A stretch of DNA of 64,000 nucleotides from assembly GCA_020628165.1 (NCBI GenBank), contig JAHDFM010000004.1:87943-151942 (forward strand), read 5' to 3'. Below are positions 4,638 to 37,458 of this stretch, one piece after another. The position numbers and the translations under genes were made by a program. The stretch's first letter is position 1. Each line of letters opens with the position of its first letter. The stretch comes from Bdellovibrionales bacterium (GTDB taxonomy: Bacteria > Bdellovibrionota > Bdellovibrionia > Bdellovibrionales > UBA1609). Below the pieces are notes generated by a model that saw nothing but the letters and a program-made list of their open reading frames with translations, did not search any database and was not told where the DNA came from.

Positions 4638-6080
4638 TTAATAAAACTTTTTTCTTTTTGACGACGGTAAGATCTTTAGCACATCACGGTACTTAGCAAC
4701 CGTTCGGCGAGCGATTTTGATGCCATCTTTTTTAAGGGCATCGACAATCTTTTGGTCTGATAGTGGTTTTTTTGGGTCTTCTGCCTCAACCAAGGCTTTG
4801 ATTTTTAACTTCACCGTTTCACTGGCAACGGAGTCACCGTCTGTTTTGTTGATTCCAGAGTTGAAGAAGTATTTTAATTCAAAGATACCTTGAGGAGTAT
4901 GCACATACTTACTTGTCGTCACACGGCTCACTGTCGACTCGTGCATACCAATGTCATTAGCAATGTCTTTCAAAATCATTGGCTTAATGAAGCCAGGGCC
5001 CTTGTCAAAGAAGTCTTGCTGGTGCTTGACGATACTTTCAGTCACTTTATAAATGGTGCGCTGTCTTTGATGTATGGACTTAATTAACCACACAGCAGAG
5101 CGCAATTTGTCCTGAATGTAATCTTGAGCTTTTTTGTCTTGGTTATCTTCCTTGGTTTTTAATAGATTTTTATAAAGATTAGACACTTTTAAACGTGGAA
5201 GGCCATCTTCATTGAGTGACACCACATACTCATCACCCACTTTGTAAACATAGACATCGGGACTGATGTAATGAGTGTCATGAGACGTATAAATGCGACC
5301 TGGCTTTGGATCCATATTGAAAATGATTTGACAAATATCGATGATATAATCCAAATCCATATTCATTTCTTTAGCTATATGAGAAAAGTTTTTTCTCTGC
5401 AATGCCTCTAAATGCTCTTCAATGATTCTAACAAGGTCTTTTGTGTCTTCCTGCAAGTGCTTAGCCTGAATCAATAAACACTCTTTTAAGTTTCTAGCAC
5501 CAACTCCAGCAGGGTCGAACTCTTGTATGAACGGTAGAATTTCTTCTAGATCTGTTTCTGAAATGTCTTCATCTGCCGCAATTTCACTGATTGGCGTTTT
5601 TAAATAACCATCATCATCAATGTATTCAACAATAATGCGGGCATGTGTCTCTTCTTCTTCATTAAATCCGGCCATTCCCACTTGCCATACTAAATGATCT
5701 GTTAACGTTGTTGAGGTCGAAAGAATATTTTCATAATTAATGATTTCGTCAGAACCGCCGCCTTGAATTTGTGGTGGCTTATACTGATTCTCCATGTAAC
5801 TTTCCCAATCAAATTCATCTTGTTTGGTTGGGTCTTGAGAGTCGGCAGATTTAGCATCAGCGCTTTGCACATCATCTTTAGTTTGGTTGTTATTTAAGGC
5901 AGGGTCATCATTAATACCATCTTGAACTTCTTCTAGCACCGGATTTTCGATGAGTTCTTTTCTGACAGCTGTTTCTAATTCCATTCGAGACATTTGCAAA
6001 AGCTTGATCGCTTGTTGCAGCTGTGGAGTCATGCGAAGCTGTTGTGATAACTTCAAAGACATCTTTAAACCCATTGCCAT
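4638..6080 (-). CDS. rpoN: RNA polymerase sigma-54 factor
   Basis: The 480-residue protein has all RpoN regions: the Gln/Leu-rich activator-interaction region I at the N terminus (LSQQLRMTPQLQQAIKLLQM), an acidic region II (about 55-105), the core-binding domain, the HTH (MHESTVSRVTTSKYV) and the RpoN box ARRTVAKYR at 457-465, which reads the -24 promoter element. GGAGG lies seven bases before the ATG. It follows lptB by about 150 bases on the same strand, the classic lptC-lptA-lptB-rpoN order of proteobacteria. The usual downstream hpf/ptsN genes are missing. A cognate-type activator lies at 25988-27274. Confidence 0.97.
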   Translation of the reverse strand: MAMGLKMSLKLSQQLRMTPQLQQAIKLLQMSRMELETAVRKELIENPVLEEVQDGINDDPALNNNQTKDDVQSADAKSADSQDPTKQDEFDWESYMENQYKPPQIQGGGSDEIINYENILSTSTTLTDHLVWQVGMAGFNEEEETHARIIVEYIDDDGYLKTPISEIAADEDISETDLEEILPFIQEFDPAGVGARNLKECLLIQAKHLQEDTKDLVRIIEEHLEALQRKNFSHIAKEMNMDLDYIIDICQIIFNMDPKPGRIYTSHDTHYISPDVYVYKVGDEYVVSLNEDGLPRLKVSNLYKNLLKTKEDNQDKKAQDYIQDKLRSAVWLIKSIHQRQRTIYKVTESIVKHQQDFFDKGPGFIKPMILKDIANDIGMHESTVSRVTTSKYVHTPQGIFELKYFFNSGINKTDGDSVASETVKLKIKALVEAEDPKKPLSDQKIVDALKKDGIKIARRTVAKYRDVLKILPSSKRKKFY

Positions 6081-8084: not shown

Positions 8085-8804
8085 ATGGGATGGTTCGTAA
8101 TAAAAAATGAAGTTGTGACAGGGCCCTTCTCGACAGAGGAGCTGTTAGAGCTTAAATCTCTCAACGAAATTGACTCTGAGAACTCTTACGTTTGGGGCAA
8201 GCAGATCAATCAATGGCTCACCTTTAAGACCTGGGAAAGCTCCTACGAATCAATACTAAGCAATAGCAATAAAAGGGCGCAGGCTAAAATTCAAACTTGG
8301 TACTACGCTAAAGATAGCAAATCAAAACCAGTGGGCCCCTTTGCTAAAGAAGTTTTAATTGAAAAAGTGAAAGAGCTCGAGGCCAAAGACAAAGTCTTAG
8401 TTTGGACAAAGGGAATGACCGCTTGGGCCAGCTTATTTGAGTTTAACGACATTTTAAATGAACTAAATATTAGTCGTCGCAAACACCCTCGCGCACCTAT
8501 TGATGGTCAAATCACACTCAAAAGCGAAGATGGCCAAGCTTTCATTGGTCGCATCAATGTCATCTCTCCTGGTGGCTGTGGCATCAGTCAAGTGGATGGC
8601 CTTATCCCTGGTGACCTTTATCAAATAGAAATTAAAAGTGATGCTTTTTACAACCCTCTTTCTGCTGTGGGTTTGGTGCTTAGAGAAATTGGCAAGAACA
8701 AGTATGGAATTCGCTTTGAAAAAATTCATATTGAATCAGAGTCGACGATCATATCTTATCTGAAAGACAACGGATACATCAAACAGAACAAAGAAGCCGC
8801 TTAA
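8085..8804 (+). CDS. GYF-GYF-PilZ protein, putative c-di-GMP receptor
   Basis: The 239-residue soluble protein has two GYF_2 (DUF4339-type) domains at about 1-55 (WFVIKNEVVTGPFSTEEL...W) and 71-122 (TWYYAKDSKSKPVGPF...W), each with the typical GPF and Trp pattern. A C-terminal PilZ domain follows (about 130-230). The c-di-GMP motif is present as RRKHPR at 131-136 and NVISPGGCG at 158-166, so nucleotide binding is plausible. GYF domains usually bind proline-rich peptides. It is divergent from lptCA and convergent with the Glt/Agl cluster, whose FHA/TonB protein has a Pro-rich linker; an interaction is only a speculation. There is no clear ribosome site. Confidence 0.85.
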   Translation: MGWFVIKNEVVTGPFSTEELLELKSLNEIDSENSYVWGKQINQWLTFKTWESSYESILSNSNKRAQAKIQTWYYAKDSKSKPVGPFAKEVLIEKVKELEAKDKVLVWTKGMTAWASLFEFNDILNELNISRRKHPRAPIDGQITLKSEDGQAFIGRINVISPGGCGISQVDGLIPGDLYQIEIKSDAFYNPLSAVGLVLREIGKNKYGIRFEKIHIESESTIISYLKDNGYIKQNKEAA

Positions 8805-8912: not shown

Positions 8913-9506
8913 TTACTCTTCGAACTCTTGTTCACCGCCAAGTGGGCCTTCTTTTTTGAGGACGGCAAAATTTATTTCATAGATGCCTGCAGCTGTCACT
9001 GTGTACATGACTTTTTTCACCGCAGCAAAATTCACTTCTTCATCGGCTTGAATCGTCATTTTACGGAAAGAATCTATTTCATCCGCTAAAGACTCGGCTT
9101 GCTGATTAACTGCTTGCTTGATCTGATTGGTGATCGATTTTTTTTCTTCTTCACCGTCTTCAATGGATTTTTTGATCATCTCATCAAGGCCTGCTATGTT
9201 CCAATCTTCTTGCTCTTTCACAGCCTTATAATCAGCAACAACCTCATTGTTGAGTTTAATTTGATCTTTAGAGATCACCACTACGTTAGAAGGCATTAAC
9301 TCTTTAACTGCCTCTGCTTGCGGAAGTGTTACTTCATCATTCAATTGAATCACTTGCCCTGTAGTGTTGTAATTCTGTAGCAAGAAAACTGCCAAAACGG
9401 TGAATAAATCAACCATCGCTGTCACTTGTAAGACGGCAACAGCACTTCGTTTGTTTTGACCTACACGACCTCTGCGGTCTCGGTATCCTGGAACTTTAAT
9501 TGGCAT
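8913..9506 (-). CDS. ExbD/TolR-type motor protein of the Glt/Agl complex (AglS/AglQ-like)
   Basis: The 197-residue inner-membrane protein has one N-terminal transmembrane helix (about 28-47) holding the Asp of TAMVDLFTVLAVFL, the residue that conducts protons in ExbD/TolR/AglQ/AglS. The periplasmic part is longer than usual for ExbD and contains a charged helical stretch (about 95-150). It is last in the ten-gene cluster and its ATG overlaps the previous stop by one base (TAATG). In Myxococcus, AglQ and AglS flank an AglR channel. Which of the two this gene corresponds to cannot be decided here. Confidence 0.85.
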   Translation of the reverse strand: MPIKVPGYRDRRGRVGQNKRSAVAVLQVTAMVDLFTVLAVFLLQNYNTTGQVIQLNDEVTLPQAEAVKELMPSNVVVISKDQIKLNNEVVADYKAVKEQEDWNIAGLDEMIKKSIEDGEEEKKSITNQIKQAVNQQAESLADEIDSFRKMTIQADEEVNFAAVKKVMYTVTAAGIYEINFAVLKKEGPLGGEQEFEE

Positions 9507-9976
9507 TACTTCGCTCCTCCCGTGGCAATAGACACTTCTGGAAACTCAGCTAGCAACAACATATCCATGGCATCAATCAAATGTTTGTAGGCCAATTCAT
9601 CCGCCATAGTGACAATGGCATCGACCTTTTCTGGGTACAGCTCTTTGATCTTCTTTAACTCAGTTAAGAGGGTGTCGTTGTCAAAATCCTGGTTCACTCT
9701 TGGCACTGGGATAAAATCTTTTCCTAATAAAATGCGGTAACCGTTTTCACGAACGTCAAGACGAAAAGGGATATCTGCTTTTGGAGGAGGTTTTGGCTTC
9801 TCATCTGAAGTCTTTTGACCATATACAGAACTCCCTATTTGAATCATCGACACTTGTGTCCAAACGGCTGAAATAAGTAAGAATATGATAAGTACACTCA
9901 TTAAGTCGATAAATGGAACGATATTCACATCAACATTCGTCGACTTTTTTCCACCACCGTCATCTACATGAGCCAT
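9506..9976 (-). CDS. ExbD/TolR-type motor protein of the Glt/Agl complex (AglQ/AglS-like)
   Basis: The 156-residue protein has a classic ExbD layout: a short cytoplasmic N terminus, a transmembrane helix (about 20-42) with the conserved Asp in NIVPFIDLMSVLIIFLL, and a periplasmic domain ending in MDMLLLAEFPEVSIATGG, the typical ExbD fold end. It lies between the MotA/TolQ gene (27 bases upstream) and the second ExbD (1-base overlap). Together the three form a proton-driven motor as in AglRQS. Only the pairing with AglQ rather than AglS is open. Confidence 0.9.
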   Translation of the reverse strand: MAHVDDGGGKKSTNVDVNIVPFIDLMSVLIIFLLISAVWTQVSMIQIGSSVYGQKTSDEKPKPPPKADIPFRLDVRENGYRILLGKDFIPVPRVNQDFDNDTLLTELKKIKELYPEKVDAIVTMADELAYKHLIDAMDMLLLAEFPEVSIATGGAK

Positions 9977-10003
9977 ATTTTACTTCTCCTTTAAAACTAA
10001 AAA

Positions 10004-10681
10004 CTAGTACTTAATTTTATCTCTGTTAGCGACAACTAAGTTGATCAAGTTCATGCTACTTTCCATCATGTCGTTTGTCGCACGACCAATTCTGATTTGT
10101 AAGAAACCAAAAGCAACGATGGCAATGATCGCAACTGCTAGTCCTAAAAACGTACAGTTCAGTGCGTGGGAAATACCCAAAGACAAAGTTGCAGCTTTCG
10201 TCGCTTGGTCAGCATCAGAGATACCACCGAAGGCTGTGATCAGACCACCAATCGTTCCAACGAGACCCACGAGAACAACAACGTTACCAAAGATGGCCAA
10301 GAATGATGTCCACCCTTCCAGTCTAGGTGTTTCTCTTAATACAGAAGCGTCCATAGCAACTTGCACCTCTTCATCTGGTCGCTTGTTTAAGACCTGAACT
10401 AAACCTTCTTTTAAAGTATTTGTTAACGGAGCTGGCCTGCTATCACAAAAAGCAATGGCTTGCTTGATCTCACCTCTTAAAATTAAACTAAACAAATTCT
10501 CATTTAAACTTCTTTTATCAACAGTGAGCCTATTGAGCGCAATGATTCTTTCAATAATCAAGAATATCACCAACAATCCAATGAATGCGATGACGTACAT
10601 GACAAAGCCACCTTCACAAAAAGACTTGGCAATGAAATTTCCCGCCTGTTTACACTGTTGCATTTTCTCTAATGCAGTCAT
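10004..10681 (-). CDS. MotA/TolQ/ExbB proton channel protein of the Glt/Agl complex (AglR-like)
   Basis: The 225-residue protein has three transmembrane helices, at about 25-45, 120-145 and 165-190, the last two with the MotA/TolQ/ExbB pattern (FGNVVVLVGLVGTIGGLITAF and GISHALNCTFLGLAVAIIAI). It should form the ring-shaped channel around the two ExbD subunits encoded just downstream. It follows the FHA/TonB gene by about 30 bases, matching the Myxococcus gltG-aglRQS association. Confidence 0.9.
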   Translation of the reverse strand: MTALEKMQQCKQAGNFIAKSFCEGGFVMYVIAFIGLLVIFLIIERIIALNRLTVDKRSLNENLFSLILRGEIKQAIAFCDSRPAPLTNTLKEGLVQVLNKRPDEEVQVAMDASVLRETPRLEGWTSFLAIFGNVVVLVGLVGTIGGLITAFGGISDADQATKAATLSLGISHALNCTFLGLAVAIIAIVAFGFLQIRIGRATNDMMESSMNLINLVVANRDKIKY

Positions 10682-10714
10682 TTTAAAACCTCCTATAAAT
10701 TTTTAAAATCTAAA

Positions 10715-12865
10715 TCACTGTGAAGAAAACACGAACGGGAATGTGACAACAGCCTCAGTATTGGCTGGCGGCTCAGGAAATCTCCACGTTACGAGTTTTC
10801 TTTTTATACAATTTGCAACTTCTCTATCATTCAAAGTATTACTAACAACGGAAGCTTTGATCGCTTTACCTTTCTCAATAATACTCCATTTTAAAACTAA
10901 CTTTCCATATAGATTTTTGTTTCTGTTAAGAGCAAGTTCATAACAGGCCTTGATAGCTCTTCTGTTTCTTCGAATCACTCGGCGGATAGCTTCTTTGTCG
11001 ATGCTTCCGATGAACTCTTCTTCAGCACCACCCACTTCAAGCTGAGCACGACCTTTCTCACCGAGACCTCCGCCACTGCCCGTGCCCGACAAGCCAGTGC
11101 CCGTTCCAGAACCAGTTTTAATACCACCGATACCAACGGTGCTGTTGCCACTGCCGCTTCCAGCTTTGAGCTTGCCACCTAAAGAGTCGCCGTCTCTGTC
11201 GTCAGTCAAACCACCTTGGCCAGTCGCTCTATCTGCCGCACCGATCAAGCCGTTATCAACACCCGCAGAGCCTTTGTTTAACTGCTTATTCAAGCCACCC
11301 TTACCAAAGACGTTGAGGAGTCCAACTTTGTTGGCGTCCACTTCCTTGGCCTGCATATTAGCATTTTTCTTACCGGAAGTTTTGACCGAGCCGCCTTTTT
11401 GCACAGAACTTGCTTTTTTATTGGTCTTTTTCAAGTTCGGGTTTTTCTTAAGTGCCTTGGCACTACCAGATTTTCTTTTGTCAGCCGTTGGAGACTTCGC
11501 GATTTTCTTTTTTTGTGAGTTCACTTTATCAGTGACCTTCACTACTTTACGCTTTTCTTCTTTTTTAGGCTCAGGTGGCTTTTCTACTTTCTCTTTCACG
11601 ACCACTTTTTTACGAGGTGGGATTTGAAAGGTCACCTTTGCCTTTCTAACTAACTCTTCTTCGATAAGGTTTTCATCAGATAGATCCACCGGTGTATAAA
11701 TCATCATATATAGACTAAAAATAGACGCTACGACTGTCGCCAAAATGATGGCCGTCGATTCTGCCGTCGTAAAGTCAAAGATCGGTGCACCAGCTGTTTT
11801 AGGAGACTGCGGCACGTAGCGAATGTATAACTTTAACAGCCCACCTTCGAGCTCAAGCACAACCATTTCACCGACTGGTAAATCTAAAACATTGCCTTTA
11901 GGGCCAGAAATAATTTTGCCCGATGAAAAAAGATCTCTAAGCGGTGTGACACTTTTATTTTCATCAACATGGTGACCTGTCATTTGTTGTGTGACATTCA
12001 CCTTGGTGCTTGGACCTACTTTTAATAGCTCATACTTAGCAGAATTGACACCCAAAAGTGGCACATTGATATCACAAGACTCATCAGAGCCAATCGTCAC
12101 TACTTTTCTGTTATTAAAGTGATGACTAGAAATTATTCTCTCTTTCCAAGCGACAGCCACTTCAAGAACAGTTCCTTTTTCAGGCTCTAAAATTGGCAAC
12201 CAGTTTTCCACCTGGCTTGGTGGAGCAAACGTTTGGATTTCTCGCCCAACAGAAGCCACTTGTGTTGCTGCAGCAACAGCTGCAGGGGTGAGAGGTGGTC
12301 TTTTCTCTTCTTTTTTTAACTCAGGAACTTCAATTTTCTTGGTGTCTTCTTCAACAGGTTCTTCAACGACTTTGGTGTCATCTTTTTTGGGCTCACTAGC
12401 TTTCACTGGCTCGGCAGGAGATTCTTCAGGTTCTGGTGTCTCTGGAAGTTCAGGAAGAGGTGGTTGAGTTTTTTCTTCTGCTTTTGCCTCTTCTTGAACT
12501 GGTTCACTTGTCGTTGTCTGAATGTGGTCGTTGTCAATTTCAGGCGCCGCAGGAGCAGTAGACTCTGGAACTCCAACAAAAAATTCAATTTTGTAGGACC
12601 CAATCGAAATTTTATCTCCAGGCTCAATTTTATGGTCTAATACTTTTTGATTATTAACAAAAACACCGTGTTCAGACCCCAAGTCTGAAATGTAATGGCC
12701 ATTGTCGCGCTCTTCGATAACTGCGTGAAGAGGAGCAATGTAGTTTCCCGTCAATTGCAATTGCAAACCGTTATTTTTACCAATAACAATTTGCGATTCT
12801 GTGTATTGTTTGACAGCCTCTAACTGGCCATCCAAATAGAGTCTAAGTACAATTGGTTGTTTCAA
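10715..12865 (-). CDS. gltG: GltG/PglI-like FHA and AgmX/PglI C-terminal (TonB-like) envelope protein
   Basis: The 716-residue single-pass protein starts with a cytoplasmic FHA domain (about 20-95: VIGKNNGLQLQLTGNYIAPL, SDLGSEHGVFVNN). A Pro/Glu-rich linker follows (about 110-190), then a second FHA-like domain (about 230-355) and one transmembrane helix (about 373-395). The periplasmic part has a Lys/Pro-rich arm, a Gly-rich stretch (about 545-620) and a TonB-like AgmX/PglI C-terminal domain (RRVIRRNRRAIKACYEL...WRFPEP). This is the GltG architecture, which links the AglRQS motor to the outer-membrane barrels. The start is TTG, overlapping the upstream stop by four bases, with GGGGAG just upstream. 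Confidence 0.9.
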   Translation of the reverse strand: MKQPIVLRLYLDGQLEAVKQYTESQIVIGKNNGLQLQLTGNYIAPLHAVIEERDNGHYISDLGSEHGVFVNNQKVLDHKIEPGDKISIGSYKIEFFVGVPESTAPAAPEIDNDHIQTTTSEPVQEEAKAEEKTQPPLPELPETPEPEESPAEPVKASEPKKDDTKVVEEPVEEDTKKIEVPELKKEEKRPPLTPAAVAAATQVASVGREIQTFAPPSQVENWLPILEPEKGTVLEVAVAWKERIISSHHFNNRKVVTIGSDESCDINVPLLGVNSAKYELLKVGPSTKVNVTQQMTGHHVDENKSVTPLRDLFSSGKIISGPKGNVLDLPVGEMVVLELEGGLLKLYIRYVPQSPKTAGAPIFDFTTAESTAIILATVVASIFSLYMMIYTPVDLSDENLIEEELVRKAKVTFQIPPRKKVVVKEKVEKPPEPKKEEKRKVVKVTDKVNSQKKKIAKSPTADKRKSGSAKALKKNPNLKKTNKKASSVQKGGSVKTSGKKNANMQAKEVDANKVGLLNVFGKGGLNKQLNKGSAGVDNGLIGAADRATGQGGLTDDRDGDSLGGKLKAGSGSGNSTVGIGGIKTGSGTGTGLSGTGSGGGLGEKGRAQLEVGGAEEEFIGSIDKEAIRRVIRRNRRAIKACYELALNRNKNLYGKLVLKWSIIEKGKAIKASVVSNTLNDREVANCIKRKLVTWRFPEPPANTEAVVTFPFVFSSQ

Positions 12866-13155
12866 TTATCTCCCCTACTTTGTCGTAAATTCTCAGTTGT
12901 CTTTCTCATTTCAGGCAAAAAATTCTTTCTAAATTTAATTAATCTTTTGTAATTAGCTTGTCTTTGCTTTAACAAATAAAGCAATTCCGGCTTATTGATA
13001 TCACCTGTGATCAGCTCATCTTCAAAGTCGACCGTCTCTGTGCGCTTGCCCTTTGACTTTTTTTTAACTTTTTTAACTTGCCTCACCTCAGTGTCTTGTG
13101 CAGTCACAGACACTGATGTTATTGCAAATATAAAAATAACCAAAAAACTTTTCAT
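12862..13155 (-). CDS. Small periplasmic protein of the Glt cluster (possibly GltF-like)
   Basis: This protein of about 97 residues has a signal peptide (1-19, SVSVTA-QD), a very basic stretch (VKKVKKKSKGKR) and a conserved-looking end (DFEDELITGDINKPELLYLL...FLPEM). Short proteins with an E-x-I-x-G-D/E-x-x-K/R-P-E motif are common between TPR and AgmX/PglI genes in myxobacterial-type clusters; GltF occupies this slot in Myxococcus. Equating the two is inference. I chose the ATG at 13155, with AAGGA nine bases upstream. It overlaps gltG by four bases. Confidence 0.7.
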   Translation of the reverse strand: MKSFLVIFIFAITSVSVTAQDTEVRQVKKVKKKSKGKRTETVDFEDELITGDINKPELLYLLKQRQANYKRLIKFRKNFLPEMRKTTENLRQSRGDN

Positions 13156-13169
13156 TATCACAGATCCTT

Positions 13170-13925
13170 CTATTTTTTATTGTCCAATGTTTTTTCTAAT
13201 TTATCAACTTTTCGTAAGAGATTTCGATCATCAGACAAGAACTTAAGTCGACTAATCATTTTGTAAGCTTCTTCTTTATCTTTGCCTTGCTCGACTAAAA
13301 ATGTGGCATAGTTAAAAAGCAGGTTTGTATCTCTAATTCCAGCAACAGTTGCCTCTTTAAAGACTTTTTCCGCTTTGTCTTTATCACCAGTTCCTAACAA
13401 TGCAACAGCATAATTATTGGCAAGAGCTGTGGCCGCTCGACTTTTCGTTGCTAATTTTGATCTAATCTTTGGATAAATATTAGACAAAGGGCCTAAGGCT
13501 TTTTGGTAATCTCTGTGCTCAACATAGATGCTAGACAGGTTCAAGTTGGCTTCACCTTCAGAATCAGAATTTTGTGCAGCTTCTTTTAAATTCTGTAAGC
13601 CTAACTTCTTATTGTCTAACTGAAAGTGAACCAAAGCTAAATTATTCTTAAGCTCAGCCCTGTTAGGATGTGCTTTCAAAGCTCTTTCTAAAATGAGCTT
13701 GGCCATATTGTACTTTTTAGCTTCGTAATAAAAAATCGCCAAAGTGTTGAGTGCTAAAAAGTCGTTCTCATCGATCGCTAATATTTTAGAAGCAGCTGTC
13801 ACTATGTCCTTTTCAGATTTTGTCTTTTGTGTTTTCTTTAAGCTCTCATAAAGTTCTGGCTCAATGGTGGCCGCCTGAACTTGTAATGATAGCGATAAAC
13901 TTAAGACTATCAATAGACCTTTCAT
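13170..13925 (-). CDS. gltE: GltE/AglT-like periplasmic TPR protein
   Basis: The 251-residue protein has a signal peptide (1-18) and about five tetratricopeptide repeats, for example NTLAIFYYEAKKYNMAKLIL, NNLALVHFQLDNKKLGLQNL and NNYAVALLGTGDKDKAEKVF. TPR domains are protein-protein scaffolds. Position between the large TPR protein and the FHA/TonB gene matches gltE (aglT) in the Glt complex. The ATG at 13925 overlaps the stop of the upstream gene by one base (TGATG). No lipobox is seen, so soluble periplasmic is the best guess. Confidence 0.8.
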   Translation of the reverse strand: MKGLLIVLSLSLSLQVQAATIEPELYESLKKTQKTKSEKDIVTAASKILAIDENDFLALNTLAIFYYEAKKYNMAKLILERALKAHPNRAELKNNLALVHFQLDNKKLGLQNLKEAAQNSDSEGEANLNLSSIYVEHRDYQKALGPLSNIYPKIRSKLATKSRAATALANNYAVALLGTGDKDKAEKVFKEATVAGIRDTNLLFNYATFLVEQGKDKEEAYKMISRLKFLSDDRNLLRKVDKLEKTLDNKK

Positions 13926-16900
13926 CACATACCTGCCTTACTTAACCATAAGCTTTTCAAAACACGCATTTCATTCATCATGCCACTGTTTCCTTGAATT
14001 TTATCTAGTGAGGTCAGTGCTCTTTTTACATTCTCATCGTAAACCTGAAGCTCATACGCCTTGTTCACTGCGGCCTGTAAGGTTTCAATGGCCTCTTTCT
14101 TATAAGGGCCTGCTATGTTTTCAATACCAGCCTTGTACTGCTTGATCTGATCGCCTTTTAGCTGTTTTGGAATAGGTACGGCATAAATCGACTTGGCCAT
14201 TGAATCCAAAGCTTCTCCTTGTAGGGTCAATGCAGCTACGATTTGATAGGCATCATCGTAAGCAACTACTTTTTTAAGCTTTTCTTTGAGCTTATTTAAT
14301 AAGGCCAATTTGGTTTTCACCGACCCTGCCATTTTTGCAGGGTTCGTCGAAATACGATACTTTTTAAAGTTTTTAAATTCATTGCGCTCAACCAATTTGA
14401 TCATAGACTCTGCGGCATAACTGGCACCTGCCCCCAGCTTTCTTTGGCGATAGATCACTTTTTTATACCACTCTTCAGAACGAGATCTGCGCTTTAAAGA
14501 TTCATGAATTTTAGCAACTCGGTAAGCAGATTTAATCTTGGCAGCATTGTTCGTGGACGGACCTTTCATAAAGCGATCGTAGTAAACAAGTGCCTTTGAT
14601 GGGAAACGCTTCCTTCGATCCCAAATATTGGCAATGGCATAGTTGACGTCATTCCGCTCAGAACCACGACTTTTTTTCTGAAAAAGTTCATAATTTCTAA
14701 TGGATGACGTGTAAAAATCAAGAGCGTCATATATCACAGCAGCATTGTAGCGGTAGTTTTTTGAGTCTTGATCTTTGGGGTATTTTTTAGCAAAGCCCTC
14801 AAAGGCACCGGCTGCGTTTGCATACTGCCCCGTTTGCTCATATAAAAAAGCAAGTGAACGTCTAGCTTGTTTTTTTACTTCTTTGTCTTTTGCCGTTTTT
14901 GCTGGGAAGTTCATCACTTCTGAATAGAGCTTAATCGCATCACTCATTCTTCCCGCTTTCTTAAAATTAACTGCTGCATTGAATTTAGAAACTGCCAAGA
15001 GATCACTTTTTGGATTCTTTTTAATAAAATCCATAAATGAATTGGCTGCCTTTAGAGGATCTTTTCCCGTTGCTGCTTGCTCAGCTAACTTAAATCCAGC
15101 TTGCCCTTTAACACCTCTGATTTTTTTTCGAACAGTTGAGCTCAAACCAGAAACAGCAAGTAGCTTGTCAGACACCTTTGCAAGACCCGCATAGTCTTTC
15201 TTTTGATTGTAGATATCTAAAACTAGATTTGCAGAGTACTCGGCATGCTTATCTTTTGGATGATTGTTCACTATGTCCATTAGCTGAGGCAATGCTTTGT
15301 CGTGTTGATTGAAAGAATAATGCAATGAACTCACACGGTACTTGATCGCCACAGAGTTTTCTTCTTTTGGAAACTCTTTGAGATAGCGATTCGCTGAGCT
15401 CGTAAATGATTTTAAGTTTTGTGGAAATTCAACTGGCTCTTTGCTATCTCCGACCAATGCCTTAATCTCTTTAACATTCGGCAATTTTTTTTCTAAAGCA
15501 AGGACTGAGTTCAAGATAGCTTGTTTGTAATACTTGCCTGACTTATTGCCATTAGCAACAACACGGTTATAACTTTTGGCAGCACCAACATAGTCTTGCA
15601 TGTCATAAAGCAATTCACCATTGAAAAAATTCATTTGATCAAGGTTTTTGCCATCTTTTATGTACCTAAAGTACATCTTATAGCCATCTTGAGCCTGCTG
15701 CTGAGAAAATTTGGCTCGAGAGTTTTGAGCCGTTTGATGGAGTTGTAAAATGTAGTTTCTCAATGTCGATTCAATCAGTGTGTCTGAATCAGCAATGAGC
15801 TTTGTTTTTGATTTGTTTTCACGGCGCCAAAGACTACCAGCCCCGTAGTTTTCGATCCATTCAAAAAGTTCTTTTTTAAAGATCTTCTGGTTTCCAGCAG
15901 CCTGATACATCTTAACTATCTCGTGCTGATACTCATAAGCTCTGACCGAGAAAGGATCATCTTTAATCAGATTTTTAAAGATATATTTTGCCGATGACCT
16001 GTCACCCTTTTCTACATAGAAAAAAGCAAGTTTATCTAACATTTTCTTAGTGGAGTTTTCACCCAAGACTTTATTAAAATACCCTCTAGCATTTTTTGCT
16101 TTGTAGACTTCAGGAAAAAACACCACGATGTCTTTGGCCGCCTCTGAAGCAAGACGAATGCGACTGACTTTGCCGTCTCCTGAGCGTCCTTTGGCTTTAC
16201 GACCTTCATAAATCACTTTTTCTAAATCGCGCAAACCACTCTTCACTTCACCAGTCTTGTATTTACACCATGCTCTTTTATATAATGAAAAAGAGTATAA
16301 ACGAGACCTTTTATTCTTAGAAATTTTATTGTAGTGAACTCTCGCATCTTTCCATTTTTCTCGTTCAAAATAGTACTCACCTAGAGCAAAATTGGACTCA
16401 TCAACATAAGGACTGCGAGGAAAACGCTTTACAAGTTCTGTGTACTTTTTCTTTCCAGATTGAGTTTTCCCAAGTTCGAAGTAGTTGTAGCCTAAAAAGA
16501 AAAGAGCCTGATCAAGCTTTGGATCTTTTGGAAAATCTCTCACAAACCACTCATAAAGTTGGATAGATTTCTTGTTATACCTGGTGGCTTCTTTTAAATT
16601 GAGTTTTGGTCTGCGCTTTAATTTTTTCTCAGAGTAAAGCTTGAGCTTTTTATCATAATCATCCTGTAGCCTTAGCTCTATGAGCTTTGCTTTATCAACA
16701 TAAAGCTCAGCTAGACGAATCCAAAGCTCTCCACGGCGAGAGCTCTTACCAAATTTTTGAGTCATGCCATATAGGTGATCAATTTGTTTGTCAGTGATTT
16801 TCTCTAGTTCTCGCTCACTGGTTCCTTCAGAGTAGTAAAATCTATTAGACGCCGGTGGCTTCACACGCCTTAAATTCACCTTGCCTTTGGGCTTTTTATA

Positions 16901-17056
16901 CTTTTTTGACTCTGGTAAAAGATTCTTTTTTTTCTTAATTTTAGTGGCTTCAATTTTCTTTAAAATGTCACCCACCGTTCGTGTTTTAGAACGTTTACGT
17001 GCGTCGACATTCATTGTTAAAAACAATGCGGCAATGATTAATAAGGAAATTTTCAT
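13925..17056 (-). CDS. gltD: GltD/AgmU-like giant periplasmic TPR protein
   Basis: This protein of 1043 residues has a signal peptide (1-19) and then almost nothing but TPR-like helix pairs, for example LFFLGYNYFELGKTQSGKKK, YKQAILNSVLALEKK and RRSLAFLYEQTGQYANAAGA. The size and repeat-only design match GltD (AgmU), which spans the periplasm in the Myxococcus gliding complex. The start is the ATG at 17056, seven bases after the stop of the preceding gene, whose last codons supply a GGAAGG ribosome site. An in-frame GTG 18 bases upstream is less likely because the signal peptide fits better from the ATG. Confidence 0.85.
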   Translation of the reverse strand: MKISLLIIAALFLTMNVDARKRSKTRTVGDILKKIEATKIKKKKNLLPESKKYKKPKGKVNLRRVKPPASNRFYYSEGTSERELEKITDKQIDHLYGMTQKFGKSSRRGELWIRLAELYVDKAKLIELRLQDDYDKKLKLYSEKKLKRRPKLNLKEATRYNKKSIQLYEWFVRDFPKDPKLDQALFFLGYNYFELGKTQSGKKKYTELVKRFPRSPYVDESNFALGEYYFEREKWKDARVHYNKISKNKRSRLYSFSLYKRAWCKYKTGEVKSGLRDLEKVIYEGRKAKGRSGDGKVSRIRLASEAAKDIVVFFPEVYKAKNARGYFNKVLGENSTKKMLDKLAFFYVEKGDRSSAKYIFKNLIKDDPFSVRAYEYQHEIVKMYQAAGNQKIFKKELFEWIENYGAGSLWRRENKSKTKLIADSDTLIESTLRNYILQLHQTAQNSRAKFSQQQAQDGYKMYFRYIKDGKNLDQMNFFNGELLYDMQDYVGAAKSYNRVVANGNKSGKYYKQAILNSVLALEKKLPNVKEIKALVGDSKEPVEFPQNLKSFTSSANRYLKEFPKEENSVAIKYRVSSLHYSFNQHDKALPQLMDIVNNHPKDKHAEYSANLVLDIYNQKKDYAGLAKVSDKLLAVSGLSSTVRKKIRGVKGQAGFKLAEQAATGKDPLKAANSFMDFIKKNPKSDLLAVSKFNAAVNFKKAGRMSDAIKLYSEVMNFPAKTAKDKEVKKQARRSLAFLYEQTGQYANAAGAFEGFAKKYPKDQDSKNYRYNAAVIYDALDFYTSSIRNYELFQKKSRGSERNDVNYAIANIWDRRKRFPSKALVYYDRFMKGPSTNNAAKIKSAYRVAKIHESLKRRSRSEEWYKKVIYRQRKLGAGASYAAESMIKLVERNEFKNFKKYRISTNPAKMAGSVKTKLALLNKLKEKLKKVVAYDDAYQIVAALTLQGEALDSMAKSIYAVPIPKQLKGDQIKQYKAGIENIAGPYKKEAIETLQAAVNKAYELQVYDENVKRALTSLDKIQGNSGMMNEMRVLKSLWLSKAGM

Positions 17057-17063
17057 ATTAAAT

Positions 17064-18659
17064 TTACCTTCCACAATTGTGAGTTCCTACATAGTGATAG
17101 TTGCCTAATTCATCTAACCAATACTCACCCTGAAACGGCCAGTATTCATATCCATTTTTTATATAAAAATTTCTATTGCGTTTTTGATCTTTGCTACGAC
17201 TGATTTCTTTACCAGCCACTTTCTTTTTGATTAACTCTTTCTTACTATTGATCATTTCATAGCGAACAAAACTTTCTTGTTCAAATAAGTCAAAAAGTTC
17301 TGCTTTGATGTTCTGCATATGAACCTTTGCTATACGACCTGCTTTTTTTCTAACTTTAATCAATCGACCGGCAACCACTTTCTTTGAGTATTTACCGATG
17401 CCTGATTTTTTCCATTTTGTGCTTAACTTATCGTAGCGCTTTTTTTCTATGATCAATTTTTGAATGTACTTATAAGTTCGGTTAAAATCACCCTCTTTAC
17501 CAATCTTTCTCGCTACAGACAAAGGCATCACTGACTTTTTAAACTTGGTTGAATTTGGGTTTTTATTATACTCTTTGATCACATCAATGAGGTCATTGTA
17601 ATAAATATTGAATGACTTGCCGTTGTCTAAGTATGTTTTTATTTTCTTGTAAACAGGTTGATATATTTTATTAAATAGATCTAAGACCTTCTCCATCTCG
17701 TTGTAACGACAAATGTATAAATAAATAATTGAGCGTAAAATCAAAGACTCTGGCATGTAGTAACTTTCATAATAAGGCGAATGTAAACTTTGAAAGTTAC
17801 TCAGCGCAGACCTGAATTTTTCTGCCCGCAACATGGCCCAACTCGATTCAAATAAAGTTTCGTGCCAAGCTTCTGTGTCGCGCGGTATATCTTTATAATA
17901 CTCAATCGCTTTTTCCCACTTCTGCGCTTGATAGTAAACGCGTGCTTTCCCCATAATTGCAGACACACGGTCTACATCTGTCACACGCTTGTCCGAACGA
18001 CTTTCAATTAATTCATTGAATGCTCTGACGGCCTTCTTCTCTCTTTTCAACTCGGCATAAGACAAGGCCTGAAGATACTTTGACTTACTATAAAAAGGGC
18101 TGTTCGGCTTCACTCGAGATAGAGTCTTTATAGCTTGAGAAAATTGTTTACTGCGCACTTGAAACTCTCCAATGCGATTGTAAAGCATATCTCTTTGTTT
18201 CTTCGGAAATTTTTTGATGTTGATTTTACTGATGGCATAATTCAGCATGGCCTCGTCACCAAGATAATCTGAGGCAATGGCCAACTTTTCTAAAGCTTTA
18301 TTGACATATTTGCGATCACCACTTTTTACCACTCGAATGAATTGAAATGCAGAGGTTTGATACATCTTCATTTTAAAAAGAGCCAAGCCTAAAAGGTAAG
18401 TGACTTTCCCACGGTGCTTTCTATATTTTGAACTCACGCTCATTTTGTAAAGAGTGAGAGATGCTTCTTCATATTTTCCGGAACGAATCATGTCAGCCAC
18501 TCGTCCCCAGGTGCCCCCAACTGAAGCCGCTCTTCGTTTAGATTTGCCGCTTGAATTTTGAGCCAAAATGATGGGATCGGATAATGAATCGACAACACTG
18601 TCAGCAAAAGTTGTGCAAGAGACTGTGAGTGCTAAAATTATAGTTAAGATTTTTTTCAT
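17064..18659 (-). CDS. gltC: GltC-like periplasmic TPR protein
   Basis: The 531-residue protein has a signal peptide (1-19) and TPR-type repeats over about 50-300 (TYLLGLALFKMKMYQTSAFQ, YLQALSYAELKREKKAVRAF). The C-terminal helical region ends in an aromatic segment (FQGEYWLDELGNYHYVG) typical of this family. Its start overlaps the stop of the upstream barrel gene by four bases. In Myxococcus, GltC is grouped with the barrels GltA and GltB, exactly the neighbours seen here. Probably periplasmic, binding the barrels. Confidence 0.82.
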   Translation of the reverse strand: MKKILTIILALTVSCTTFADSVVDSLSDPIILAQNSSGKSKRRAASVGGTWGRVADMIRSGKYEEASLTLYKMSVSSKYRKHRGKVTYLLGLALFKMKMYQTSAFQFIRVVKSGDRKYVNKALEKLAIASDYLGDEAMLNYAISKINIKKFPKKQRDMLYNRIGEFQVRSKQFSQAIKTLSRVKPNSPFYSKSKYLQALSYAELKREKKAVRAFNELIESRSDKRVTDVDRVSAIMGKARVYYQAQKWEKAIEYYKDIPRDTEAWHETLFESSWAMLRAEKFRSALSNFQSLHSPYYESYYMPESLILRSIIYLYICRYNEMEKVLDLFNKIYQPVYKKIKTYLDNGKSFNIYYNDLIDVIKEYNKNPNSTKFKKSVMPLSVARKIGKEGDFNRTYKYIQKLIIEKKRYDKLSTKWKKSGIGKYSKKVVAGRLIKVRKKAGRIAKVHMQNIKAELFDLFEQESFVRYEMINSKKELIKKKVAGKEISRSKDQKRNRNFYIKNGYEYWPFQGEYWLDELGNYHYVGTHNCGR

Positions 18660-19450
18660 CTTTCATCGACCCCCGGAAAGAAGAAGCTTAAGCCAATCGC
18701 CAAAAACAAATCATTGTGAAGCTCTTCATCTTCAATAAAGCTTCCAGATGGCTGGTTCTTTCGCAAAATGGTTGCGTTGTAGGCATGCCAGTTAATGTCC
18801 CAACGAAACGCCATATTTTTACTAAGAGCTAAATATTGACCTAACCCTAAATGCAAGGTTGGCTCTTTCTCTAATTGTGTTTCTGTCACCCCACCACCCA
18901 AGGTAATGAACCAATCAAAAGACACAATGCGATCTTCAAATAAAGCCATTTTCCCATAAAAAGGGGCCCACTTGAGAGCGCCTCCCATATAATTGAGAGG
19001 CAAAACGAAACTTCGAGTTTCTATTTGTCGTTCGTCAGCTAAGTTTTTAGTGATCTCTCTCTCTGAATCAATCAGATGATAGTAAGACAACTCTATTCCC
19101 CAGGACTCATTTAAATACCAATCAAGGTGTGCCGAAACCCCTAAGTTGTTAAAAAAGGCATTGTTCAAACCAACCATGCCTTGCAAAGAAAGCTCAAACC
19201 TTTTTGTTTTTGGCATGTACTTTTTGTTAATCACCGCTATGTCAGAAAATGGAGCTAACTCTGAAAGATCTGAAATCTTTTTAAATTTTTTGACCTCATC
19301 TTTATAATTGGTTCTTTTTTTAACTTGAGTGGTGCCCACTTTTTTGTCTAGATCTCTTTCCAAAGAATCATAAAGAGAGTCTTCCTCGTTGGCATAAACA
19401 AAGCACAGTGGAAAAACTAAGAAAAGCAGAACTAATTTTTTAAAATCCAT
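18656..19450 (-). CDS. GltA/GltB-like outer-membrane beta-barrel protein
   Basis: The 264-residue protein has a signal peptide (1-20), a charged linker (about 25-75) and an eight-strand-type barrel (about 80-264). It ends in FLAIGLSFFFPG, compatible with an outer-membrane insertion signal. It resembles its upstream neighbour in length, layout and phrases (QGMVGLNNAFFNNLGVSAHL against QGGMGFNLTEALYNNKSFHL), so the two are paralogues. GltA and GltB of Myxococcus are also a tandem pair of related barrels of this size. GAGAG lies before the ATG. Confidence 0.8.
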   Translation of the reverse strand: MDFKKLVLLFLVFPLCFVYANEEDSLYDSLERDLDKKVGTTQVKKRTNYKDEVKKFKKISDLSELAPFSDIAVINKKYMPKTKRFELSLQGMVGLNNAFFNNLGVSAHLDWYLNESWGIELSYYHLIDSEREITKNLADERQIETRSFVLPLNYMGGALKWAPFYGKMALFEDRIVSFDWFITLGGGVTETQLEKEPTLHLGLGQYLALSKNMAFRWDINWHAYNATILRKNQPSGSFIEDEELHNDLFLAIGLSFFFPGVDER

Positions 19451-19462
19451 TTTAACTCTCTC

Positions 19463-20200
19463 TTAAAAAATAAACATCAAACCAACTTGTAAAATCGTTG
19501 GTACATATAAAATACTGTCTAAATCATCGCTGGAAACAGGCTGTGAGCCAGTTTCTAGAGCTTGATCACTGCTGGCTGGATTAGGTCCTTGGTAAAAGTG
19601 AAACCTAAAATCTGTTTTTAATGCTAAATTCCTTGTCAGATAAAACTTCTGTCCAAAACCAACGTTGAGTGCAACGGTGCTAGAATCTGTGAAGCCGACA
19701 TAACTGGCTCCCAAAAGGCCGTAAAGTGACATATGCCAAATGGTATTTTTAGTGATACTGATCTTTCCGTACCAGGCTGTGAATTGGTAATCCAAAAGCA
19801 CCATTTGTTCAACATGAGGGGCTAGTTCAGCATCTAATGATCCAAAGATACCCTCACCTCGCTTTAAGGCTTCACCATTTTCAGAGAGACCTTCCATCAT
19901 GAACATTCCAACAAGTTGAACGGCATGAGTCTCTGTAAAGTTGTAACCAAGTCCCAGGTGAAAACTTTTATTATTATAAAGAGCTTCGGTGAGGTTAAAC
20001 CCCATGCCCCCTTGAATTTCAAATCTTTCTTTTGTATTCACGTACCTGTTTTTCACCATAGTTTGATTATCAAACTTTGGTAACACCGTGTCTGTTGCCA
20101 GCTCTTCTTCTGGAAACTCAATTGAGCTTGCATGTCCCTCAAAAGAAATGGCAGAGATCAAGATAAATAGGAACAGATATAATACTTTAAATTTTTGCAT
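19463..20200 (-). CDS. GltA/GltB-like outer-membrane beta-barrel protein, first gene of the cluster
   Basis: The 245-residue protein has a signal peptide (1-24) and a barrel ending with LYVPTILQVGLMFIF, whose C-terminal Phe is the usual outer-membrane insertion signal. It is a paralogue of the next gene, 12 bases downstream, and heads the ten-gene Glt/Agl operon. In the Glt model these barrels contact the outside surface and are coupled by GltG to the motor. A minus-strand TATAAT lies about 55 bases before the start. Confidence 0.8.
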   Translation of the reverse strand: MQKFKVLYLFLFILISAISFEGHASSIEFPEEELATDTVLPKFDNQTMVKNRYVNTKERFEIQGGMGFNLTEALYNNKSFHLGLGYNFTETHAVQLVGMFMMEGLSENGEALKRGEGIFGSLDAELAPHVEQMVLLDYQFTAWYGKISITKNTIWHMSLYGLLGASYVGFTDSSTVALNVGFGQKFYLTRNLALKTDFRFHFYQGPNPASSDQALETGSQPVSSDDLDSILYVPTILQVGLMFIF

Positions 20201-25987: not shown

Positions 25988-27274
25988 ATGCAAACACTAA
26001 AAATGGAGCCAGCAATAGAGCCTAAGCTCCTGGACAAAGCCTTTCTTTTACACAACGAAATTGTGTATCAACTCAAGGACATCAATACTCTTGGCAAAGA
26101 CCACAGTTGTAGTCTTCGCTTCATTCAAAAATATGTCGATGAACGCCACTGCCGAATCTACTTAGAGGATCACAAAATTATTTTGCGAGACCTCAAGTCT
26201 GAGCAAGGCACATACTTAAATGATGTTAAAATTATTGAAGCTGAACTTTCTCACGGTGATATCATTCGAATGGGTCATCTTGAACTGATATTCAGTCATT
26301 CCCCATTAAGACCTCAAAGCAAAAAGTTAAAACTCATAAGTAAAAATGAAATTTGGAGTGAGCAATTAAAAAAAATTTATCAATTTGCTCAATCAGAATA
26401 CCCAGTTCTCATCGCTGGTGAATCTGGCACGGGCAAAGATCTCATTGCTCAACAGTTGCACGAATACTCTCAACGATCGCACGAGAAGCTCGTCTGTATC
26501 AATTGCAGTGCACTCAGTCCGCAGCTTATAGAAAGCGAACTCTTTGGACATCAAAAAGGAAGTTTCACAGGTGCCGAAAAGGATCGAAAAGGAGCTTTTG
26601 TCGAAGCTAAGTTCGGAACCCTTTTTTTAGATGAGATTGGAGACCTTCCCCTGAATTTACAACCCAAGCTTCTTCGCGCTCTTGAAAACAATGAGATCAA
26701 ACCCGTTGGCTCAGACCAAACGATCAAAACAAATGTACGAATTATCACGGCCACACATAAAAACTTAGATAAAATGGTCGAGAAAGGGCTCTTTCGCCAA
26801 GATCTCTTTTTTAGAATTAATGTTTTACAACTCAATCCACCTTCTCTAAAAGAGCGTTTTGAAGATTTCAATGATCTCTTCTATCATTTTGCCAAACTCT
26901 ATCGCATCCGTTTTGACTTCAATTCCATTGAATATTTAAAAAAATATGATTGGCCAGGCAATATCAGAGAGCTCAAGAACTTTGTGATTAAAGCCTCAGT
27001 GCACTATAAGGGTGAGCTCGTTAACATTGAAAAAGTGAAATACCTACTAGATTTACAAAACATGACAGTAACAGATAAGTCAAAAGCACCTATAGAAAAA
27101 AAATTTTCAGTTCTTAAGCAGCAAGAAATCGAGACTATTTGCGAAGCCCTTGCCCTTTACAATGGCAATCAGAGAAAAGCTGCAAAAAGCTTAGGTATGG
27201 CTCCAAGCACAATGTGTGACCGAGTCAAAAAATACGGCATTAATATCAAAGCGATGAAAAAGCATGTCTTTTAA
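25988..27274 (+). CDS. Sigma-54-dependent transcriptional activator with FHA sensor domain
   Basis: The 428-residue protein has an N-terminal FHA domain (about 20-105; LGKDHSCSLRF, DLKSEQGTYLN), so it is likely controlled by phospho-Thr binding from a Ser/Thr kinase rather than by a receiver domain. The AAA+ domain has Walker A GESGTGKD at 144-151, the sigma-54 loop as GSFTGA at 191-196 (usual form GAFTGA), Walker B TLFLDE at 211-216 and an R-finger region. A Fis-type HTH (NQRKAAKSLGMAPSTMCDRV) ends it. GGGAG precedes the ATG. Its targets are not shown by the sequence; rpoN is at 4638-6080. Confidence 0.93.
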   Translation: MQTLKMEPAIEPKLLDKAFLLHNEIVYQLKDINTLGKDHSCSLRFIQKYVDERHCRIYLEDHKIILRDLKSEQGTYLNDVKIIEAELSHGDIIRMGHLELIFSHSPLRPQSKKLKLISKNEIWSEQLKKIYQFAQSEYPVLIAGESGTGKDLIAQQLHEYSQRSHEKLVCINCSALSPQLIESELFGHQKGSFTGAEKDRKGAFVEAKFGTLFLDEIGDLPLNLQPKLLRALENNEIKPVGSDQTIKTNVRIITATHKNLDKMVEKGLFRQDLFFRINVLQLNPPSLKERFEDFNDLFYHFAKLYRIRFDFNSIEYLKKYDWPGNIRELKNFVIKASVHYKGELVNIEKVKYLLDLQNMTVTDKSKAPIEKKFSVLKQQEIETICEALALYNGNQRKAAKSLGMAPSTMCDRVKKYGINIKAMKKHVF

Positions 27275-36150: not shown

Positions 36151-37458
36151 ATGAGTAATAAAAAATCAGTTTACATAGCAATGAGTGCTGACTTAATTCA
36201 TCCTGGGCATCTCAACATCATCAAAGAAGCTAAAAAACTTGGAGATGTCACTGTCGGAGTTCTCACAGACCAAGCAATCGCTTCATACAAGCGAGTTCCA
36301 TATATGAAGTACGAATTGCGAGCTGAAATCGTTAGTCAACTCAAAGGAGTCAGTAAAGTCGTACCTCAAGAAACACTTTCCTATGCTAAAAACTTGCGAT
36401 CTTTACAGCCAAACTTTGTTTTGCACGGAGATGACTGGAAAGAGGGTGCACAAAAGCAAACACGCAATGAAGTCATAGAAGTCCTCAAAGAATGGAATGG
36501 TGAACTTGTTGAAGTCCCATACACCCAAGGCATTTCATCTTCAGAACTAGATAAAACTGTTCGAGCATTTGGTACGTCTCCAGATGTCCGCCGCGGTTAT
36601 TTGCGGCGTCTCCTCTTAGCCAAGCCAACCCTCAGGTTTTTACAAGCACATAATGGTATCACTGGCCTCATTGTTGAGAATGCAAAAGCCAAGCGAGGAG
36701 AACACACCGTCGAATTTGATGGCATGTGGGCCAGTAGCCTCACCGACTCGACTTCACGTGGCAAGCCCGACATTGAAGCTGTTCAATTAGAAACTCGTCT
36801 TGAAAGCTTAAATGACATTCTTGAGTGCACTACAAAACCAATCATCTACGACGCCGACACTGGTGGGCGCCCAGAGCATTTTTTTTACACAGTCAGAACC
36901 CTAGAGCGACATGGGATTTCAGCCTGTATTATTGAAGATAAAGTTGGCTTGAAAAAAAATTCTTTATTTGGAACCAACGTTCAGCAAAAGCAAGATACGA
37001 TTGACGGATTTTGTAAAAAAATACAAGTTGGTAAAAAAGCACAACAGTCAGATGATTTTTTAGTAATTGCTCGCATAGAAAGTTTAATTCTTGAAAAAGG
37101 ACATGAAGATGCTGTTGAGCGCGCCAAATCCTATCTACAAGCAGGTGCTGATGGCATCATGATACACAGTCGCAATAAATCTCCTAAAGAAATTTTAAAA
37201 TTTTGCGAGGCCTACAATCAGTTTAAAAATCGAATGCCTCTTGTTGTTGTTCCGACAAGTTATAACGAAGTGCTCGACTCGGAGCTCTCAACAGCGGGTG
37301 CAAATATTATCATATATGCAAATCACCTTTTGCGCGCAGCCTATCCTGCCATGATGGATGTGGCCCAAGGAATTTTACAACACGGACGTTCCTTAGAGAT
37401 AGAAAATCACTGTATGCCAATCAATGAGATTCTCGAACTCATACCGGGAACTAAGTAA
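36151..37458 (+). CDS. pepM: Cytidylyltransferase-phosphoenolpyruvate mutase fusion
   Basis: The 435-residue protein has an N-terminal nucleotidyltransferase (about 5-135; HPGH motif [16 protein letters not shown] and ISSS in [10 protein letters not shown]), like the PntC cytidylyltransferases that make CMP-activated phosphonates. A C-terminal PEP mutase follows (about 145-430), which forms the C-P bond of phosphonopyruvate. Mutase motifs are intact: [20 protein letters not shown] and [12 protein letters not shown], the EDKxGxKxNS signature that separates PepM from isocitrate-lyase relatives. It is the first gene of a three-gene phosphonate operon with its own promoter. Confidence 0.92.

Follow-up and report, generated by a model that had tools for sequence, protein, structure and literature searches.

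A conserved Agl-Glt/Nfs-family operon of Bdellovibrionales and a possible cyclic di-GMP input beside it

Introduction

Which machine is encoded by the ten consecutive genes at positions 8913–20200 of a Bdellovibrionales genome segment, and what would it do for the cell? The segment, "the window" below, is the whole stretch of 64,000 nucleotides that we analyzed (GenBank GCA_020628165.1, contig JAHDFM010000004.1, positions 87,943 to 151,942). An earlier reading of the letters, the original prediction, had described these genes as a complete Glt/Agl trans-envelope machine in one operon. Our results support placing the operon in the Agl-Glt/Nfs family, and its gene content and order identify it as the counterpart of Bd0828-0838 of Bdellovibrio bacteriovorus, or "set 1" of Bdellovibrionales; the machine is therefore one already known. 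With a probability of roughly seven in ten, we take it to be a force-transducing machine of this family, used most likely for gliding and firm prey attachment. This figure concerns the machine and its use; the role of a neighboring gene for a GYF-PilZ protein is weighed separately. That neighbor hints at control by cyclic di-GMP (c-di-GMP), which has been unreported and is the new element here.

Layout of the operon

The open reading frame (ORF) check of the window confirmed ten minus-strand ORFs at 8913–20200, with a maximum intergenic gap of 33 bases; the one-strand operon and its named parts are real and lie where they had been predicted. From gltA to aglS, the spacing between neighbors is +12, -4, -11, -4, +8, -4, +33, +27, and -1 bases. 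The genes are as follows:

19463..20200, minus: gltA-position gene, outer-membrane beta-barrel, 245 amino acids (aa); TIGR04565 OMP_myx_plus 93.2 bits (cut-off 60); signal-like N-terminal stretch
18656..19450, minus: gltB-position gene, outer-membrane beta-barrel, 264 aa; TIGR04565 113.8 bits
17064..18659, minus: gltC, predicted periplasmic TPR protein, 531 aa; NF033756 GltC 212.5 bits; TPR
13925..17074, minus: gltD, large, predicted periplasmic TPR protein, 1049 aa; TPR_6 74 bits; set-1 profile matches to myxobacterial GltD
13170..13928, minus: gltE, predicted periplasmic TPR protein, 252 aa; TPR repeats; GltE model weak, 37.6 bits
12862..13161, minus: gltF/cglF, small, predicted exported protein, 99 aa; NF033764 CglF 47.1 bits, E 1.8e-12
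10715..12865, minus: gltG, 716 aa, with FHA, proline-rich linker (predicted cytoplasmic), one predicted transmembrane helix (about residue 370), predicted periplasmic tail, and TonB-like C-terminal domain; NF033760, NF033768, FHA 52.6 bits
10004..10681, minus: aglR, MotA/TolQ/ExbB-family motor subunit, 225 aa; PF01618 87.7 bits; AglR tree
9506..9976, minus: aglQ, ExbD/TolR-family motor subunit with transmembrane aspartate, 156 aa; PF02472 53.4 bits; PFIDLM aspartate
8913..9506, minus: aglS, second ExbD/TolR-family motor subunit with transmembrane aspartate, 197 aa; PF02472 44.6 bits; MVD aspartate

The two barrels, called GltA and GltB by gene position only, had been predicted to be paralogous, and a profile comparison relates them at 99.8% probability over 189 columns. 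Promoter and terminator scans gave counts not above those of shuffled sequence.

Membership in the Agl-Glt/Nfs family

Our NCBIfam search matched the GltG model NF033760 at 237.9 bits over residues 1–715, and the AgmX/PglI tail domain NF033768 in the same protein at 111.7 bits, above the model cut-off. The scores of GltG, GltC, and CglF fall under the curated equivalog cut-offs (650, 450, and 90), as expected for distant relatives; they indicate kinship, not identical function. The MotA/ExbB, two ExbD, FHA, and TPR domains are all above Pfam cut-offs. Profiles built from set 1 match genes in Myxococcus sp. CA023, Hyalangium versicolor, and Corallococcus for all ten genes. The matches to myxobacterial proteins reach 381–462 bits for GltD, about 260–274 for GltG, 153–199 for GltC, and about 85–112 for GltE; among the motor profiles, AglR scores about 200 bits, AglS about 112, and AglQ about 86. 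The barrel profiles give weak matches (42–55 bits), in Nfs-like and one other set. These results bear out the family claim of the original prediction.

Compared with the Myxococcus Agl-Glt machine, encoded by the G1, G2, and M1 clusters, the operon thus has homologues of GltA–G and of AglR, Q, and S, and an alignment shows that the transmembrane aspartates of AglQ (PFIDLM) and AglS (MVD), those of the proton channel, are common to Myxococcus AglQ and AglS. The genes lie in three clusters in Myxococcus, but in one operon here. GltE (252 aa, versus 471) and GltC (531 aa, versus 673) are shorter here, whereas the other lengths parallel those of M. xanthus.

The motor subunits are also distant homologues of TolQ and TolR, and some authors term the four Bdellovibrio operons, listed in an expression study (PMC2797640), TonB-like. 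Both points would suit an ordinary TolQR/ExbBD energizer with a TonB-like partner, serving nutrient uptake or outer-membrane stability. We consider this very improbable. In our AglR tree of 78 proteins (supports here and below are Shimodaira–Hasegawa-like approximate likelihood ratio values, SH-aLRT), the set-1 proteins form a clade at a starred 99, which joins myxobacterial AglR (M1) at 91, a good though unstarred value, while TolQ/ExbB-like proteins separate at a starred 98 and the other motor sets separate as well. Moreover, the operon has the dedicated partners GltC, GltD, CglF, and OMP_myx barrels, and none of its ten proteins matched TolA, TolB, Pal, or a TonB-dependent receptor in Pfam or NCBIfam. 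The outcome that the original prediction had set against itself, no similarity to GltA–E and a motor grouping with TolQR/ExbBD, was looked for and did not appear: the AglR of the operon falls with its myxobacterial counterparts. We also searched the PDB by sequence with GltG, AglR, and GltC; only FHA proteins and TolQ/ExbB came back, nothing useful, and the GltJ GYF domain discussed below is the one Agl/Glt structure that we could compare.

Gliding or surface transport

Is the operon then a gliding machine in particular? In a quick, midpoint-rooted GltD tree, set 1 (a starred 100) lies outside a clade (a starred 97) in which gliding (G1), Nfs-like, and other myxobacterial sets stand together. 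The GltG tree agrees weakly with this placement; the GltC tree, which included no GltC of the G2 cluster, is unresolved at the Glt/Nfs level. The structural genes of set 1 are best read as co-orthologous to both Glt and Nfs, so that the name "Glt" in the original prediction was too narrow. With set 1 outside this mixed clade, the choice between gliding and surface transport cannot therefore be made from sequence alone.

The same tree placement would agree with an Nfs-like function, in which the same proteins, motor included, would transport or rotate a surface polymer or lipoprotein to build a coat or capsule and would not move the cell. Sporulation of M. xanthus requires the nfs cluster, in which all G1 and G2 genes but GltI, J, and K have close homologues, and set 1 is likewise without GltJ. 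Clusters of this kind in Myxococcus sp. CA023 (L206) and Hyalangium (L201), which we label Nfs-like from their make-up and not from a name, resemble the operon in keeping homologues of GltD, E, F, G, and C and of a barrel together, but they differ in that we found no motor gene in them, whereas the motor lies inside the operon here. The operon itself has no polymer-export gene. Bdellovibrio, which has four such sets, glides, and a motor mutant of its set-1 counterpart has an attachment defect, as described next. We therefore judge an Nfs-like transport role unlikely, though more probable than the TolQR/ExbBD reading.

The Bdellovibrio counterpart

Four expanded sets were described in B. bacteriovorus by Luciano et al. 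in 2011 (PMC3169522), who considered Bd0828-0838 the likeliest gliding apparatus of Bdellovibrio; this set has no GltH, I, J, or K. Its content as given there (AglR, Q, S, GltD, E, F, G, C, A, B; no GltH, I, J, K) is identical to that of our operon. Among the genomes that we compared, G048 (3,988,594 bp), which we take to be B. bacteriovorus from the layout of its sets, has four sets at 0.42, 0.81, 1.56, and 2.44 Mb, a spacing that fits the four Bdellovibrio operons. The set at 0.81 Mb matches the window operon, running A, B, C, D, E, F, G, R, Q, S and then lptC-lptB-rpoN. The counterpart differs in one respect: members of the Bdellovibrio family do not have the GYF-PilZ gene adjacent to the operon.

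In a transposon-sequencing study (PMC6561027), disruption of Bd0838 (annotated aglS) by a transposon impaired attachment to prey, killing, and rounding of the prey. Because of this phenotype, we favor a role in gliding or prey contact. A 2025 proteome (PMC12546842) associated two further sets with the early bdelloplast phase and the exit phase; according to a 2026 review, the gliding machinery of Bdellovibrio has yet to be identified. The source genome of the window also encodes an MglA, which scores 288.8 bits to M. xanthus MglA.

Spread across the order

The compact form without GltH, I, J, and K is not peculiar to the source genome. It has been known for Bd0828-0838 since 2011, and set 1 is ordinary for its bacterial order: a motor profile detected its AglR, near-orthologous, in 118 of 127 genomes. 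A broader sample of the phylum contained 31 members of the order; all of them score as set-1-like, at 354 bits or more, whereas the nine positives outside the order score 205–233 bits only. The order A-B-C-D-E-F-G-R-Q-S is kept in 20 relatives from several families (one has gltA on the opposite strand), and therefore the arrangement is not due to chance. The flanks are mostly conserved in these relatives as well: the operon lies between pyrG-kdsD and lptC-lptB-rpoN.

In nine of the 20 relatives, gltD and gltE are fused, and the fused and split states require at least four changes on a GltC tree. These repeated fusions suggest that the GltD and GltE products are in direct contact. Two genomes of only 1.2–1.3 Mb (G020 and G033) retain the full set 1, with D and E fused, and their GltG is 498–500 aa long and without the FHA region; no GYF-PilZ protein was detected in either genome. 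These small-genome relatives indicate that the machine across the envelope can persist when cytoplasmic inputs disappear. Set 1 thus stands out by its presence in most genomes of the order, its survival intact in such small genomes, and the attachment phenotype of its counterpart.

Proposed mechanism and points against it

Based on the Myxococcus literature, we propose how the machine would work. AglR, AglQ, and AglS would form a proton-driven motor in the inner membrane, and proton flow through it would drive GltG, the force carrier. In GltG, the FHA domain and the proline-rich linker are predicted to be cytoplasmic; a single helix would then cross the membrane, and a long periplasmic tail would finish in a TonB-like domain. 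Force may pass from this tail through GltF, GltE, GltD, and GltC to the two outer-membrane barrels, which would move or retain surface material.

Several observations weigh against a gliding machine of the Myxococcus type. GltD is no closer to gliding than to Nfs-like sets, and the gliding role in the source organism is argued from relatives. GltH, I, J, and K are essential for Myxococcus gliding, and none of them is in the operon, so that "complete" in the original prediction overclaims. The prediction had itself noted the lack of GltJ, GltI, and GltK. For GltJ this holds throughout the source genome, in which no full-length protein was found; GltH, GltI, and GltK are not among the ten operon proteins, and no genome-wide search was made with their models. 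The GltJ model gave tail-domain and GYF-only matches in the source genome and in genome G002, and short partial matches in G048; in Myxococcus sp. CA023 the full model is matched by two pieces on separate contigs. Nor does the operon encode an adhesin such as CglB. The suggestion that this is an ancestral form is plausible, because the literature infers that the genes were linked first and were split later in Myxococcales.

The GYF-PilZ neighbor

The range given in the original prediction leaves out a conserved gene convergent with the operon:

8085..8804, plus: GYF-GYF-PilZ protein, 239 aa, convergent with aglS; GYF_2 61.7 bits (two stretches), PilZ 43.5 bits

In a PDB sequence search, only one match deserves mention: 7z3c, which is the GYF domain of Myxococcus AgmX/GltJ, with a marginal E value (0.025). 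The predicted structure (mean predicted local distance difference test score, pLDDT, 85.7; predicted template modeling score, pTM, 0.45) is reliable for the domains but not for their arrangement; its fold matches c-di-GMP-bound PilZ domains and also the motility regulators YcgR and MotI. Among GYF-PilZ proteins, the arginines of PilZ motif 1 (RxxxR) are invariant; in motif 2, (D/N)xSxxG, the S and GG are kept, but the first position is degenerate, with V, T, S, or another residue instead of D/N. The protein may be a c-di-GMP-responsive regulator of the machine, in place of the cytoplasmic GYF module of Myxococcus GltJ.

How far does the position of the gene support this? Outside the Bdellovibrio family, it lies downstream of set-1 aglR and convergent with it in 38 of 59 genomes, from seven of nine families. 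Within that family, it is beside set 1 in none of 59 genomes, and the gene is elsewhere in 57. The whole region, with lptC, lptB, and rpoN and with kdsD and pyrG, is conserved, and the position alone could be passive synteny, which counts against a functional link. It is a real possibility, if somewhat short of an even chance, that GYF-PilZ is a neighbor only, unrelated to the machine and retained with the lptC-lptB-rpoN block; the equally conserved housekeeping genes and the Bdellovibrio family both fit this idea. Against it, GYF-PilZ proteins also adjoin the aglR of a second, paralogous set in a different genomic context, GYF_2 domains are uncommon, 14 control genomes having none, and the one marginal PDB match is to the GYF domain of GltJ. 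Because the whole region is syntenic, this second set, and not adjacency, is the strongest argument for function.

A PilZ protein beside another Bdellovibrio set, Bd1482 next to Bd1473-1483, was earlier suggested as a possible c-di-GMP receptor for gliding (PMC3271064), and the gene at the matching place in G048 has the same GYF-PilZ build. We tentatively suggest, as an idea that is rather doubtful, that in most families outside that of Bdellovibrio a dedicated GYF-PilZ partner of the motor replaces the GYF of GltJ and would couple c-di-GMP to it, as YcgR and MotI do on flagellar stators. If such a partner is real, it would provide a direct c-di-GMP route to a gliding-type motor. A GYF-ligand motif in the GltG linker was sought and rejected: the linkers are mostly proline-rich, share no common motif, and have their prolines also where no GYF-PilZ gene is adjacent.

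Paralogous sets

The other sets of the order (types Bd0412-0420, Bd1473-1483, and Bd2368-2377) resemble set 1 in having their own motor and GltD-, GltG-, GltC-, and barrel-like genes. They differ in gene order and are highly divergent; in most, GltG is shorter and without an FHA match. Most also end with a lipoprotein bearing a VWA-like DxSxSM motif, which is absent from set 1. The source genome has a second, very divergent Agl-Glt-like set of its own (contig C33; L041:4580-14839). It comprises aglR-Q-S, a TPR protein of 968 aa, an 82-aa protein, a 403-aa GltG-like protein without FHA match, a lipoprotein, an OMP_myx_plus barrel, a weak GltC-like protein, and a lipoprotein of 488 aa that carries the VWA-like motif DPSSSM. 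In other Agl-Glt-like sets of the order, lipoproteins with the DxSxSM motif, which resembles the metal-ion-dependent adhesion site (MIDAS) of VWA domains, follow the gltC-like gene at six loci (L242, L245, L246, L248, L249, and L252) and lie upstream of aglR at another (L258). A parallel to the CglB adhesin is possible; the likeness is at motif level only, with no Pfam match at 1e-3 in those tested.

Other genes in the window

At 166–1572 on the minus strand, the window encodes a secreted VWA protein with a DGSGSM motif (Pfam VWA, 5.6e-7). We considered it as an adhesin of the operon and rejected it, since no similar protein occurs in any fetched set. At 25988–27274 (plus strand), an FHA domain is fused to a sigma-54 activator, and rpoN lies at 4638–6080 of the same window. 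At 36151–37458 (plus strand), a cytidylyltransferase-like domain is fused to a phosphoenolpyruvate (PEP) mutase domain, a combination that may point to a surface polymer decorated with phosphonate.

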